The notes under the pieces are model-generated. The model was given only the letters and a program-made list of their open reading frames with translations. It was not told the DNA's origin and ran no database searches. This document shows positions 635 to 6,357 of a stretch of 64,000 bases of DNA, in pieces. This DNA is from Algoriphagus sp. (lineage in GTDB: Bacteria; Bacteroidota; Bacteroidia; Cytophagales; Cyclobacteriaceae): NCBI GenBank assembly GCA_021298245.1, contig JAJTDZ010000001.1, positions 62,001 to 126,000 of the forward strand. Direction: 5' to 3'. Positions within the stretch are counted from its first letter, which is position 1; each line of letters opens with the position of its first letter. Both the position numbers and the translations under genes were made by a program.

Positions 635-1744
635 CTATTTACCGAAAACTCCAAATTTTATCCCTTGCTCAAGTAGTTTTTTAAGATTCTTTGCGGCTAT
701 TGCTTTCTTTTGGGGATCAGAAAGGCTTATCTCAGGAAGCTGTAAGTAAACATCAAAATCTTCCCTACCCTCTTCACCAGAAGAGATAAGTCCTATTTTT
801 TTTCCCTCCTGTCTGGCAAATTGTAAAAGGATATGAGAAGCTTTTCCTTGCTTACTCTGTCTGTCGTATTTACCTTCACCCGTCAAGATAAAGTCTGCAT
901 TTTTAATTTTTTCCAACATTCCCACCTTTTCAAAAAAATAAGAGGCACCTACTTCTAGTTGGAGGGGAAAAAAATAAGACAATCCATACGCTATACCCCC
1001 TGCGGCCCCAAAACCTGGTCGATCATTTACTTTTTTCTTTGATTTTGAAGAAAGAAGATCAATAAAGGATTGTGCCTCTTGGGTAAATACATCCATTTCT
1101 GAATATTTCAGGCCCTTTTGAGGTCCAAAAACAGGGATTGCTCCATCTTGACCAAAAAAACAAGAAGTAACATCAGCTAAACACAGAAAACGTAGACGAG
1201 GGACCCGTATTGGGCCTTGGATATGTTTGCATCTTTTTAGTATATCTGCGGAAAAACTGGAAAGCTCACGGCCCTGAGCATCTAAAAATTGATAACCCAA
1301 AGCTTGTAGAATACCTACTCCAAGGTCAATACTCGCACTTCCCCCTAAGCCTAGTACTATCTTTTCAGCTCCCTTGGAAATAGCTGCTTGCACCAAGATT
1401 CCTGTACCGTAAGTTGAGGCTATTCTTGGATTTCTCTCTTCAACAGCTAAGGTGGACAATCCAGAACAAGTGGACACATCCAGATAGGCTGTTTTGGTAT
1501 GTTCCTCCCATCCAAAAAATCCTGCTGCAGGTTTGCCTAGGGCATTGAGCGAAAGGCAGGATACTTTTTCAATTCCCAGCGCATCAATCAACAGCGAACA
1601 GGTACCGTCTCCCCCATCGGCAATGTCTTGTGTCTCCACTTGGACAGATGGCAGTTCTTGGGTAAATAGCTCGTGGATAATAGTAGAAGCTTCTGATGCA
1701 GTCAGCGTGCCTTTGAATGCATTGAGAGCTAGCAATAGCTTCAT
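635..1744 (-). CDS. glxK: Glycerate kinase (GlxK/GarK family)
   Basis: This enzyme phosphorylates D-glycerate with ATP, to 2-phosphoglycerate in this family (class II, PF02595), and feeds glycolysis. The 369 residues are close to the usual 375-380. Family marks are the start LLALNAFKGTL, the block IADGGDGT, the glycine-rich GLGGSASIDLGVG, a DVTSCFFG-type segment followed by FGPQKG, and FILTGEGKYDRQS near the C-terminus. Its ATG overlaps the stop of the upstream GH20-AGCS gene by 4 bases (ATGA), which implies translational coupling. The link between hexosaminidase/symporter and glycerate metabolism is not obvious. A GhrA-like hydroxypyruvate reductase at 30826-31746 could supply glycerate, but it is not adjacent. 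Confidence 0.9.
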   Translation of the reverse strand: MKLLLALNAFKGTLTASEASTIIHELFTQELPSVQVETQDIADGGDGTCSLLIDALGIEKVSCLSLNALGKPAAGFFGWEEHTKTAYLDVSTCSGLSTLAVEERNPRIASTYGTGILVQAAISKGAEKIVLGLGGSASIDLGVGILQALGYQFLDAQGRELSSFSADILKRCKHIQGPIRVPRLRFLCLADVTSCFFGQDGAIPVFGPQKGLKYSEMDVFTQEAQSFIDLLSSKSKKKVNDRPGFGAAGGIAYGLSYFFPLQLEVGASYFFEKVGMLEKIKNADFILTGEGKYDRQSKQGKASHILLQFARQEGKKIGLISSGEEGREDFDVYLQLPEISLSDPQKKAIAAKNLKKLLEQGIKFGVFGK

Positions 1745-4704
1745 TTTTGTTTCATTCGTGCAAAATAATCCTTGGAAGCTGCCTTTACCTTAGGTGCTAG
1801 ATATAATGCAGCAATCATATTGGGAAAGGCCATCACGGCATACATGCCATCTACCAAACTTACCACCAAATCCAAGGAAGCAACAGATCCAACTACAATG
1901 GTAACCAAGTAAAAATAGTTGTAGTACCTTGAACTCTTTGCTCCAAAGAGGTAACTGGCACATTTTTGACCGTAATAGGAATAGGTAAACATGGTAGAAA
2001 GTGCAAATACCAAAGCCGAAATCATCAAGATGTATTTACCCACGACTGGTATTCCCAACTCAAAAGCTTCTATGGTAAGTTTGACCCCATCATTTTCAGA
2101 ATTCTGCCAGACTCCAGTGAGCAAAATGGCAAAAGCGGTAAGAGAACAAACCACCACCGTATCAATAAATGGACCCAACATGGCAATTAAGCCTTCTCGA
2201 ATCGGCTCCTTGGTTTTGGATTGACCATGCACCATGGGAGCAGTACCTAGGCCTGCTTCATTAGAAAAGAGGGATCTTCTGGCTCCAGTGATAATCACCA
2301 TCCCCACTGCACCTCCGAGCACCGCATGACCCGTAAAAGCATCTACTACAATGAGTCGAAATACTTCTGGAATATTTCCAAAGTACTGGAGGATTATAAT
2401 CACTACAGCTAAAAAATAGATACCCACCATAAAAGGAACCATTTTGGATGCAGCGGACGCAATACGCTGAATGCCTCCCAAAATTACCACCGCCGTCAAT
2501 ACCATCATGATAATCCCTACGACCCAACTATTTCTGGTAGATTCTGCAGCAGATTCAGGCTCCAACAATACTTCTTGTATCACCGCTGTCAACTGATTGG
2601 AAGTAAATACAGCCAATAGTCCTATGATTCCCGCGATACAAAAGATATAGGCTAGAAATTTCCATTTCTTCCCCATTCCATGCTCGATAATGTACATGGG
2701 TCCTCCTTGGATTACTCCTGCCGTATCCTTGCCCCGGTACATGATGGATAAGCTGCAGGTATAGTACTTGGTAGCCATGCCCACAAAAGCAGCTACCCAC
2801 ATCCAAAAAAGTGCTCCCGGGCCACCCGTATTGATGGCAATTGCTACACCTGAAATATTCCCAAGTCCTACCGTAGCGGCAATGGCCGACATCAAGGCTT
2901 GTTTGGAAGTAATCTCGCCAGGGGCCAATTTATCCTCATATTTCCCCTTTAATAATTCTATGGCGTGCCCCATTTTGGTGAGGGGCACAAAACCGGAATG
3001 AATAAAAAAAAACAGCCCTCCTCCCAGCAAAACGATCAACAAGGGCCAACCCCATATCCAATTGGAAAAGGAAATGATGGCTGCTTCGATTCCAGATTTT
3101 TCACTCTCTTTCCAAGTGACTTTTGGTGATTTGTAGTATCCAATACCTTGGATGTCCCATCGCTGTCCCTGAAAGGGTATTCGAGAAGAAAATCCTTCCC
3201 AAGACCGAGTTGCTTGTTCGGTCCATCCTATTTCAGCTATCGCTGCCAAGCGAGGGAAAGAAAGGTACTCGATATCTTCCTTGGTAACTACAGTCTCTGA
3301 CCATAGTGGTGCTTCTATTCCTAAAATATTCTCCTTGGAGATTCCCGGCACGTATTGAGCAGGATCCCACAAATAAGCAGAATCCAATTCAACATAGGCT
3401 GCCCAATGTAATCCAATCCTAGAGGTACTATCGTACTGCATATCCAAATAGGCCTTTTTAGCAGGAGAAAAAAGGACCTTACTACCTTGGTTTTTAGCCA
3501 AAAGAGCATTTTCCTCTTTTGCCCAAAACTGGGCCACAGTACCTGGAAGTAATTTAGCTGTAGCAATCTCATCCCATCCCATGTTGGTTTTTCCATGGGA
3601 AGCCACGATGTTTTGAACGCGTTCAACAAAATAGATGTAATCGTCTTTTTCTGTTACATGGGATTCATCTCCTCCAATATGGAAATATGGTCCAGGAGTA
3701 ATTGTAGAAATTTCACGCACCACACTATCTACAAAGGCATAGGTAAGATCTAGCTGAGGAGCAAAAGTACTCCATCCTACCTCAATACCCGTGTAAAGCT
3801 GGGAGGCTTCTGGTTTGGTTAAAGGAAGTTGGTAATCAAGAGGAGTTCGATTGACCGAATCTAAGGCTTGGCCTCTTGGGAGATTAACTCCTGGATTTAA
3901 TTCCGGATAGGAAGCCAGAGCAGAATTGGTATGTCCTGGCATATCTACTTCCGGGACGATGGTGATGTAGCGTGCTGCCGCATAAGCTACCAAGTCTTTG
4001 TATTCCTCTTGGGTATAAAAGCCCCCCTTGGCCCCTCCTACTTGAGTGCTTCCACCAATTTCGGTAAGCTTTGGCCAAGATTTGATTTCTATTCTCCAAC
4101 CTTGATCATCAGTGAGGTGAAGGTGAAGGTAATTTAACTTTAAGGTAGCCATTTGGTCGATGTAGGACTTCACGTTGTCGACCGAAATGAAATGTCTCGC
4201 TACATCCAGCATAGATCCTCTGTAGGCATAGCTAGGAGAATCTTCAATGCTCCCTTGAGGAATTACCCAATCTACCGATTGACTTGTTTTATGCTCAATT
4301 TCTACAGGAAAAAGTTGTAGAAGGGTTTGGATGCCATAAAATATCCCTGCAGCTCCAGAAGAACTTATTTTTACTTCTTTTTCTGAAATTTCAAGCCTAT
4401 ACGCCTCCGTATTCTCTTCGCCAGTCAATTCTAGAATAACATCTCCCCTGTCCTTAGAGACTGGAATAGTATATCCTGTGGCAGGTCGAAGTTGCTCAGC
4501 TAAAAAATTACCAAGATGAGGCAAGTCTTCGTTGGTTCCTACCAGTCGAATACCGGAAGTGCTAGATAAAGTAAATGTACCTGACCCATTGGTGATTTTC
4601 TGCGGCAAGGGAAGCAAGCCTGCATCTGTCAAGGTAGTTGACTTTTGGCAGGAACTCAATAGCATGAAAGTTCCTAAAACAAAGATCCAGCATAGATTTT
4701 TCAT
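1741..4704 (-). CDS. GH20 beta-N-acetylhexosaminidase fused to an AGCS sodium:amino-acid symporter
   Basis: One uninterrupted frame encodes about 987 residues. Residues 1-18 are a lipoprotein signal with lipobox LSSC (Cys19). A GH20b-like domain and a GH20 TIM barrel follow, to about residue 535, with HIGGDE (catalytic pair Asp346-Glu347) and the late block EAPLWSE. After a linker of about seven residues, from about 539 to the end, comes an essentially full-length AGCS (Na+:alanine symporter, PF01235) domain. It opens with SNWIWGWPLL, has the unwound-helix motif GLGNISG, then QGGPMYIIE and FSNEAGLGTAP, and about 11 membrane helices. I chose M7 of the longest frame as start because it directly precedes the signal peptide. 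AGCS has one helix ahead of its LeuT-type core, so its N-terminus should face the periplasm, which is where the hexosaminidase must be. A real fusion is therefore topologically sensible. The alternative is loss of a stop and spacer between two neighbouring genes. Confidence 0.88.
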   Translation of the reverse strand: MKNLCWIFVLGTFMLLSSCQKSTTLTDAGLLPLPQKITNGSGTFTLSSTSGIRLVGTNEDLPHLGNFLAEQLRPATGYTIPVSKDRGDVILELTGEENTEAYRLEISEKEVKISSSGAAGIFYGIQTLLQLFPVEIEHKTSQSVDWVIPQGSIEDSPSYAYRGSMLDVARHFISVDNVKSYIDQMATLKLNYLHLHLTDDQGWRIEIKSWPKLTEIGGSTQVGGAKGGFYTQEEYKDLVAYAAARYITIVPEVDMPGHTNSALASYPELNPGVNLPRGQALDSVNRTPLDYQLPLTKPEASQLYTGIEVGWSTFAPQLDLTYAFVDSVVREISTITPGPYFHIGGDESHVTEKDDYIYFVERVQNIVASHGKTNMGWDEIATAKLLPGTVAQFWAKEENALLAKNQGSKVLFSPAKKAYLDMQYDSTSRIGLHWAAYVELDSAYLWDPAQYVPGISKENILGIEAPLWSETVVTKEDIEYLSFPRLAAIAEIGWTEQATRSWEGFSSRIPFQGQRWDIQGIGYYKSPKVTWKESEKSGIEAAIISFSNWIWGWPLLIVLLGGGLFFFIHSGFVPLTKMGHAIELLKGKYEDKLAPGEITSKQALMSAIAATVGLGNISGVAIAINTGGPGALFWMWVAAFVGMATKYYTCSLSIMYRGKDTAGVIQGGPMYIIEHGMGKKWKFLAYIFCIAGIIGLLAVFTSNQLTAVIQEVLLEPESAAESTRNSWVVGIIMMVLTAVVILGGIQRIASAASKMVPFMVGIYFLAVVIIILQYFGNIPEVFRLIVVDAFTGHAVLGGAVGMVIITGARRSLFSNEAGLGTAPMVHGQSKTKEPIREGLIAMLGPFIDTVVVCSLTAFAILLTGVWQNSENDGVKLTIEAFELGIPVVGKYILMISALVFALSTMFTYSYYGQKCASYLFGAKSSRYYNYFYLVTIVVGSVASLDLVVSLVDGMYAVMAFPNMIAALYLAPKVKAASKDYFARMKQK

Positions 4705-4896
4705 AGGGTGGTTTTTATCCAAACTTAGTTTAAAATCTTAAAAAACACGATGTACCCATCAAAATTTTGGAGCAAGAACCATTATTATAAATCGGCTAAA
4801 CGAAAAAAGAAGGAATTTCTTCCAAATCCTTACTTTTTTCCTTAAAATTAAATCAGTTATCACCCTATGTAATTTTATAACCTAATCTAAAGACCT

Positions 4897-6357
4897 ATGG
4901 GCAAGAAGGAGCCTAATTTGAGCAATTCCAGCAGGAGATCATTTATTAAAGGAGCTACCCTTGGTGTGGCTGGATTTTATTTATTTCCAAGACATGTATT
5001 GGGGGGACCAGGTTTTATTGCTCCCAGCGATAGGTTAAGGGTAGCTTCCATTGGTGCTGGAGGAATGGGATATGGAGATTTGACTGGCGTTCACAAAACT
5101 GGAAAAGTGGATCTTATCGCCCTATGTGACGTAGATGATACCCGCGCTGCCAAAGCCAGAAAAGAACATGAGAAAGCAAACTACTACAAGGACTACAGAA
5201 TTTTATTAGAAAAAGAAGAAAAAAACATAGATGCAGTTACGGTGTCTACGCCAGATCACATGCATGCCGTTCAAGCCATGATGGCCATGAAAATGGGTAA
5301 ACATGTCTATGTGCAAAAGCCCCTTTCCCATGATATTTATGAGGCCAGAATGCTCACCCAAGCAGCGGTGCAGTACAAGGTAGTTACCCAAATGGGAAAT
5401 CAAGGATCTTCAGGAGATGGAGTGCGTCAAATGATAGAATGGTATCAGGCAGGATTGATTGGAGAGGCTACTAAAGTCTGGTCTTGGACCAATAGGCCTG
5501 TTTGGCCGCAAGGAATACCCTGGCCAAGTGTAGGAATAACTCCTCCTGCTGATCTGGATTGGAACCTGTGGCTAGGTACTGCACCTTACAAAGATTACGT
5601 AGGAAATTTGGTGCCATTCAACTGGAGGGGCTGGTGGGACTATGGTACCGGGGCTTTGGGAGATATGGCCTGCCATATCATGGAACCTCCCTTTCGCGTG
5701 TTGGATTTGGGATATCCAATTTCAGCAGAATGCTCTGTAGGGTCGGTGTATGTAGGCGAATTTCAACGAGGTTATTTCCCTGAAAGCTGTCCTCCCTCTT
5801 CCCACATTACCTTAAGATTTGATCGACCAGGAATTGGGGAATTGGAATTTCATTGGATGGATGGAGGAATACAACCCACCCGGCCAGAAGAGTTGGGGCC
5901 TAACGAACAAATGGGTGATGGAGGCAATGGGGTAATCATTGAAGGCACCAAAGGAAAAATGATGTGCTCGACCTACGGTGCAAATCCGCAATTACTTCCT
6001 ACCTCAAAGACAAAGGATATTGCTGTAGCTCCTTCCTTGTACAGGGTGCCTGGAGGTGATCGTGGACATTATGCCAACTGGGTAGATGCTTGTATCGCAG
6101 GATATGGTTCAAAAGAATTTTCGCAGTTGAGCTCTCCTTTCTCCATCGCAGGGCCACTAACCGAATCCGTATTGATGGGTAATCTTGCGATTAGAAGTTT
6201 TGACTACCGCGTTCCTAGAACTGGCTCTACGAATCAATTTGATTATCCAGGCCGAGGTATCAAACTTCTTTGGGACGGTCCCAACATGAATATCACCAAT
6301 TTTGAACCTGCCAATCAATTTGTTAAAAGAGTTTATAGAGAAGGTTTTACTCTTTAA
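4897..6357 (+). CDS. Tat-exported Gfo/Idh/MocA family oxidoreductase
   Basis: This 486-residue NAD(P)-dependent sugar dehydrogenase has a twin-arginine signal (SRRSFIK at 12-18, then a hydrophobic stretch), so it should be folded and loaded with cofactor before export to the periplasm. The Rossmann motif GAGGMG is at 53-58. The family EKP motif appears as QKPLSHD, a common variant in exported Bacteroidota members. WDYGTGALGDMACHI fits the substrate-side conserved region, and the C-terminus (RSFDYRVP, FVKREYR-like FVKRVYR) is complete. The gene stands alone, divergent from the GH20-AGCS gene, and ends at a strong terminator. The substrate is not predictable; relatives oxidise sugars or polyols. 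Confidence 0.88.
   Translation: MGKKEPNLSNSSRRSFIKGATLGVAGFYLFPRHVLGGPGFIAPSDRLRVASIGAGGMGYGDLTGVHKTGKVDLIALCDVDDTRAAKARKEHEKANYYKDYRILLEKEEKNIDAVTVSTPDHMHAVQAMMAMKMGKHVYVQKPLSHDIYEARMLTQAAVQYKVVTQMGNQGSSGDGVRQMIEWYQAGLIGEATKVWSWTNRPVWPQGIPWPSVGITPPADLDWNLWLGTAPYKDYVGNLVPFNWRGWWDYGTGALGDMACHIMEPPFRVLDLGYPISAECSVGSVYVGEFQRGYFPESCPPSSHITLRFDRPGIGELEFHWMDGGIQPTRPEELGPNEQMGDGGNGVIIEGTKGKMMCSTYGANPQLLPTSKTKDIAVAPSLYRVPGGDRGHYANWVDACIAGYGSKEFSQLSSPFSIAGPLTESVLMGNLAIRSFDYRVPRTGSTNQFDYPGRGIKLLWDGPNMNITNFEPANQFVKRVYREGFTL

Follow-up and report, generated by a model that had tools for sequence, protein, structure and literature searches.

The closest described relatives of the gene reported here belong to two separate protein families. 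In glycoside hydrolase family 20 (GH20), the hexosaminidases of Streptomyces plicatus (1HP4) and S. coelicolor (4C7D) were solved as stand-alone, two-domain enzymes. In the sodium:amino-acid symporter family AGCS (Transporter Classification 2.A.25), the structure of AgcS is available (6CSE/6CSF), with a helix plan which we take to be a LeuT-type core after one helix. Here, we describe a gene in which a lipid-anchored GH20 enzyme continues directly into an AGCS carrier. It lies at 1741..4704 on the minus strand of a 64,000-nucleotide stretch of DNA from Algoriphagus sp. (GCA_021298245.1, contig JAJTDZ010000001.1, positions 62,001 to 126,000), which is referred to as the window. From sequence comparison and a structural model, it is probable that this gene goes back to a single merger event, allowed by membrane topology, in a genome undergoing reduction, and that it specifies one two-domain protein of the inner membrane.

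No protein of this domain pair was found in the literature searched, which was by title and with most subscription journals outside the search, in agreement with the first-pass annotation of this DNA. A literature search on the clade gave no title on the subject either.

A hexosaminidase and a symporter in one reading frame

The open frame (1741..4722, minus strand) contains 987 codons from the ATG at 4704 to the stop TGA at 1743..1741, with no internal stop, and the predicted mass of the full-length protein is approximately 108 kDa. Sequence and motif comparison identified a lipoprotein signal peptide at residues 1-19 (4648..4704, minus strand), followed by Cys20-Gln-Lys. The lipobox Cys signal was present in 16 of the 18 fused loci of the genus, the remaining two lacking their 5' end.

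The GH20 part covers residues 1-531 (3112..4704, minus strand) and was identified by Pfam, Protein Data Bank (PDB) alignment and fold match. It contains the GH20b domain (29-155) and the GH20 catalytic domain (159-496), the latter matching PF00728 over positions 1-347 of 348 with 299.1 bits against a cut-off of 22.3. The catalytic Asp-Glu pair lies in the motif HIGGDES, which was kept in all 15 fused copies examined out of the 18 loci. This part has the two-domain form of the Streptomyces enzymes, with 42-43% identity in structural alignment. The catalytic pair aligned with that of the S. plicatus enzyme, together with the Trp and Tyr residues that presumably line the hexosaminidase pocket. 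The alignment with 1HP4 reaches the shared C-terminal motif (SPQVPW, corresponding to SPKVTW at 526-531 here), therefore the enzyme domain is complete.

The linker KESEKSG (residues 532-538; 3091..3111, minus strand) falls between the old stop and the old start, its first codon occupying the position of the GH20 stop in relatives. Next to it, the codon ATC (Ile539; 3088..3090, minus strand) stands where comparison with unfused relatives places the AGCS start ATG. The AGCS part extends over residues 539-987 (1744..3090, minus strand) and has no start Met. It was matched by the whole TIGR00835 agcS model (1-424 of 424; residues 551-980) with 414.5 bits against a cut-off of 272.65, and by PF01235 (Na_Ala_symp, 594-987) with 407.6 bits against a cut-off of 24. 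The match to the sodium/alanine symporter AgcS (6CSE) is nearly full-length (residues 545-979, 37% identity). However, unlike AgcS, the AGCS part is preceded by 538 residues, and in the broken first core helix, near residues 611-616, it reads TVGLGN, as do 72 of 72 loci of the genus, instead of the TIGTGN of 6CSE; this difference could bear on the substrate. In the source genome (83% complete), AGCS was matched in the fused gene only. The composition proposed in the first-pass annotation, a single frame with a lipoprotein signal, a complete GH20 enzyme, a seven-residue linker and a carrier lacking only its start Met, was confirmed by these Pfam and TIGR00835 matches and PDB alignments.

Origin of the fusion within the genus

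We surveyed 72 genomes of the genus, 71 of which gave a match at 1e-100, resulting in 18 fused and 54 unfused loci; the genome without a match at this threshold, G080, is 2.9 Mb and 74% complete. The search for homologues spanning both domains, suggested in the first-pass annotation, found the fusion in 16 further genomes, 17 in total. The same annotation held that two separate genes in all close relatives would argue against a real fusion: 54 relatives do have the two-gene arrangement, whereas the 16 other genomes share the fused one. One draft, G026, carries two different fused copies (L120 and L128) on two contigs, and is possibly a mixed bin. Three of the 18 fused loci (G002, G019 and G026b) are cut by contig ends.

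In all 54 unfused loci, the GH20 gene ends in a stop and the AGCS gene starts with its own ATG after a gap of 89-202 nt (median 150). A typical unfused junction reads KSPKVTW-stop, a hairpin with a T run, a promoter-like element, ATG and ..FSNWIWG. The terminator-like hairpin was found in 51 of the 54 gaps compared with 2 of 54 when each gap was shuffled once. A TATTATCG-like element, a pattern picked after inspecting the sequences, lies 44-59 nt upstream of the AGCS ATG in 17 of the 54, including each of the 14 unfused rows that fall on the same side of the tree as the fused clade. These pairs have the same gene order and neighbours as the fused loci, with 58-79% identity over the best segment.

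In the fused copies the junction reads KSPKVTW-[EKA]......-[IFL]E...FSNWIWG, so that the stop position now codes for an amino acid, and the gap is approximately 70-185 nt shorter than in the unfused loci. The old ATG has become TTC in seven loci, TTT and CTT in three each, ATC and TTG in two each and TTA in one. In a midpoint-rooted tree built from the AGCS part in 64 of the 72 loci, all 17 fused rows formed one clade (support 98/93), which requires one change. This single clade, and the stop and ATG in the unfused relatives, indicate at the sequence level that the fusion arose once, through the loss of the stop, the terminator hairpin, the promoter-like element and the start. Fused genomes are 2.2-2.8 Mb in size (67-91% complete) and unfused genomes 3.3-6.4 Mb. 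Some of the Algoriphagus-type records with the same genes are presumably of freshwater origin.

Outside the genus, no single match spanning both domains was among the matches listed for 390 genomes of the family (1e-120), or for 390 of the order and 395 of the phylum (1e-220), sets which overlap and in which two candidates were scored per genome, so that a fusion appearing as two matches might escape. Three loci in other genera chosen for odd open frames (G206, G146 and G218) were rejected as fusions, as each has AGCS in a frame of its own, 449-456 amino acids long.

The ratio of nonsynonymous to synonymous substitution rates (dN/dS) was determined for 15 of the 18 fused loci. By a simple counting method, with synonymous sites near saturation and pairs without a finite value excluded, the GH20 part had a median of 0.059, the AGCS part 0.037 and a 19-codon stretch around the linker 0.128. 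The reading frame was kept at a median dS of approximately 1, and the sole change of linker length among the 15 was one whole codon. Judged by these substitution patterns, neither half is decaying and the fused gene is under purifying selection.

Membrane topology and competing explanations

The AlphaFold model of the fused protein (mean predicted local distance difference test (pLDDT) 81.7, predicted template modelling score 0.57) showed two well-formed domains. The pLDDT of the joint at 533-538 was below 50, and the relative placement of the domains is not fixed by the model. The top Foldseek matches were GH20 hexosaminidases (1M04/1HP4; template modelling score, TMt, 0.93) and AgcS (6CSE; TMt 0.92), and a search of a viral fold library gave resemblance for single halves only. 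The AGCS part has 11 membrane helices in the model, counting 679-714 as one; these helices and the 6CSE match give a LeuT-type core preceded by one helix. With the N-terminus outside, 18 Lys and Arg residues fall in inside loops and 4 in outside loops, therefore the N-terminus of the AGCS part would be outside and its C-terminus inside.

An acidic motif after the lipoprotein Cys is described as a surface-export signal in Bacteroidetes in PMC5080379. The residues after the Cys are CQKSTTLTD here and CQKPAPISE or similar (QK-S/P/T...) in the other fused copies, and the lipoprotein surface-export (LES) motifs looked for, K-(D/E)2, Q-A-(D/E)2 and the SDDDD/SDDFE type, were absent from the fused copies. 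Therefore, the GH20 part should face the periplasm, and an enzyme joined to the carrier should remain at the inner membrane. Both placements had been anticipated in the first-pass annotation, in which the carrier's N-terminus and the hexosaminidase were put outside; the model and charge counts agree with the former and the periplasm-facing lipoprotein signal with the latter.

The merger can be pictured as follows. In the ancestor of the small-genome Algoriphagus-type clade, the stretch between a lipoprotein GH20 gene and the downstream AGCS gene would have been lost. The predicted product is one polypeptide which would be exported by Sec and lipidated at Cys20, with GH20 folding in the periplasm; after the short flexible linker, the first AGCS helix would act as a stop-transfer sequence, and the LeuT-type core of 10 helices would lie in the inner membrane. 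Such a merger would be permitted since both joined ends face the same compartment, and hard to undo, as the carrier no longer has a start or promoter of its own. Most likely two separate jobs were kept, the exo-removal of beta-linked N-acetylglucosamine (GlcNAc) or N-acetylgalactosamine (GalNAc) and the Na+-coupled uptake of a small amino acid, which may feed the adjoining glycerate kinase. The merger would place the enzyme at the inner membrane, and enzyme, carrier and kinase probably share one promoter.

Some observations weigh against this reading. The 17 fused genomes are all drafts, none of them complete, the hairpin scan also scored 3 of the 18 fused junction regions, and two fused loci (G010 and G026) have TTG, which could serve as a start codon, in place of the old ATG. 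Fused copies had a somewhat higher dN/dS than unfused ones (GH20, 0.063 vs 0.048; AGCS, 0.039 vs 0.020), so constraint may have eased slightly in the small-genome clade. A fusion of neutral origin may also bring a benefit today.

The protein could instead be made as one chain and cut in the linker in the periplasm, releasing a lipoprotein enzyme and a carrier. This is a less likely outcome, although a charged linker of low pLDDT, the kept lipobox and products that would resemble the ancestral proteins are in keeping with it; no cleavage motif was seen in the linker by eye, no motif search having been made, and purifying selection on the linker codons is neither needed nor excluded by cleavage. 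An internal translation start yielding free AGCS from the same mRNA would be favoured by the two TTG codons and by an in-frame ATG that lies 30 codons past the N of NWIWG in 12 of 16 loci examined. However, none of the 18 loci retains the old ATG, and in 16 of them the replacing codon is not ATG, GTG or TTG. The later ATG is lacking in 4 of the 16 loci examined for it, and a carrier started there would be without its first helix. Together, this makes an internal start very improbable. An assembly or sequencing artefact, for which only draft genomes could be a reason, has a negligible probability. The same junction occurs in 17 of 72 genomes at 74-97% identity and is shared by nine records from several projects (L022-L029 and L034), which for practical purposes rules out chance and assembly error.

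A further explanation is that the two activities are coupled: GH20 would trim GlcNAc or GalNAc off a glycosylated amino acid or short glycopeptide, AGCS would import the freed serine or alanine, and glycerate kinase would catalyse a later step. The fusion has been kept under selection across 19-26% amino-acid divergence, the topology from model and charges is suitable, within the genus all 54 unfused genomes keep the GH20-AGCS order, as do 6 of 20 loci from other genera, and the AGCS and kinase genes overlap, all of which would fit coupling. Nevertheless we consider it unlikely, as the terminator-like hairpin separates the two genes in 51 of 54 relatives, GH20 is not beside AGCS in 14 of the 20 other-genus loci, and the low-confidence joint leaves the model silent on the position of GH20 relative to the carrier; we also know of no shared substrate. 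A covalent unit, in which a lipid-anchored periplasmic hexosaminidase at the symporter mouth would free small amino acids from glycosylated amino acids or peptides for immediate import toward a glycerate-kinase pathway, is slightly more doubtful still.

The substrates bear on the same question. AGCS substrates are given as alanine or glycine in a table of PMC10862720, and PMC12795558 reports glutamine, noting that few members have been characterised. On family grounds, GlcNAc is unlikely as an AGCS substrate. Among the GlcNAc catabolism models, nagB had 3 and nagA 10 matches in the source genome, itself 83% complete, none over the curated cut-offs. Given these substrates, the conserved kinase neighbour and the hairpin in 51 of 54 relatives, the direct hand-over of a product such as GlcNAc from enzyme to carrier, as the first-pass annotation had supposed, is not supported.

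With the merger as the preferred explanation, the locus offers a tree-placed example of a secreted lipoprotein enzyme and a many-helix carrier merging, and 54 relatives retain the unmerged state. The idea that membrane topology decides which genes can fuse becomes directly testable, as does the effect of fusion on enzyme location and regulation. For annotation, caution is needed, since the fused protein may be named for one half only.

Neighbouring genes

A glycerate kinase gene (635..1744, minus strand) follows the fused gene, its start overlapping the stop (ATGA). Glycerate kinase follows AGCS in 54 of 54 unfused and 16 of 18 fused loci, the other two ending at a contig edge. It was also downstream in all 20 AGCS loci from other genera, of which 17 came from best matches and three were the odd-frame picks. 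GH20 was upstream within the flank in only 6 of these 20, three of them odd-frame picks, thus the wider partnership is that of carrier and kinase. We know of no substrate link for this pair; a route from serine or glycine to glycerate would suit a glycerate kinase.

Upstream, a divergent Gfo/Idh/MocA oxidoreductase gene (4897..6357, plus strand) is a conserved neighbour, present in 53 of 54 unfused and 15 of 18 fused loci, the other four lacking flank. Beyond it, a gene for a deoxyhypusine-synthase-like protein (PF01916; 6436-7455), here in a bacterium, is conserved beside the locus. Its distance from the fused gene is approximately 1.7-1.8 kb in 9 of the 12 fused loci that have it and 2.9-3.1 kb in the other three, compared with 3.3-3.6 kb in the 50 unfused loci that have it, which is a second sign of shrinkage.

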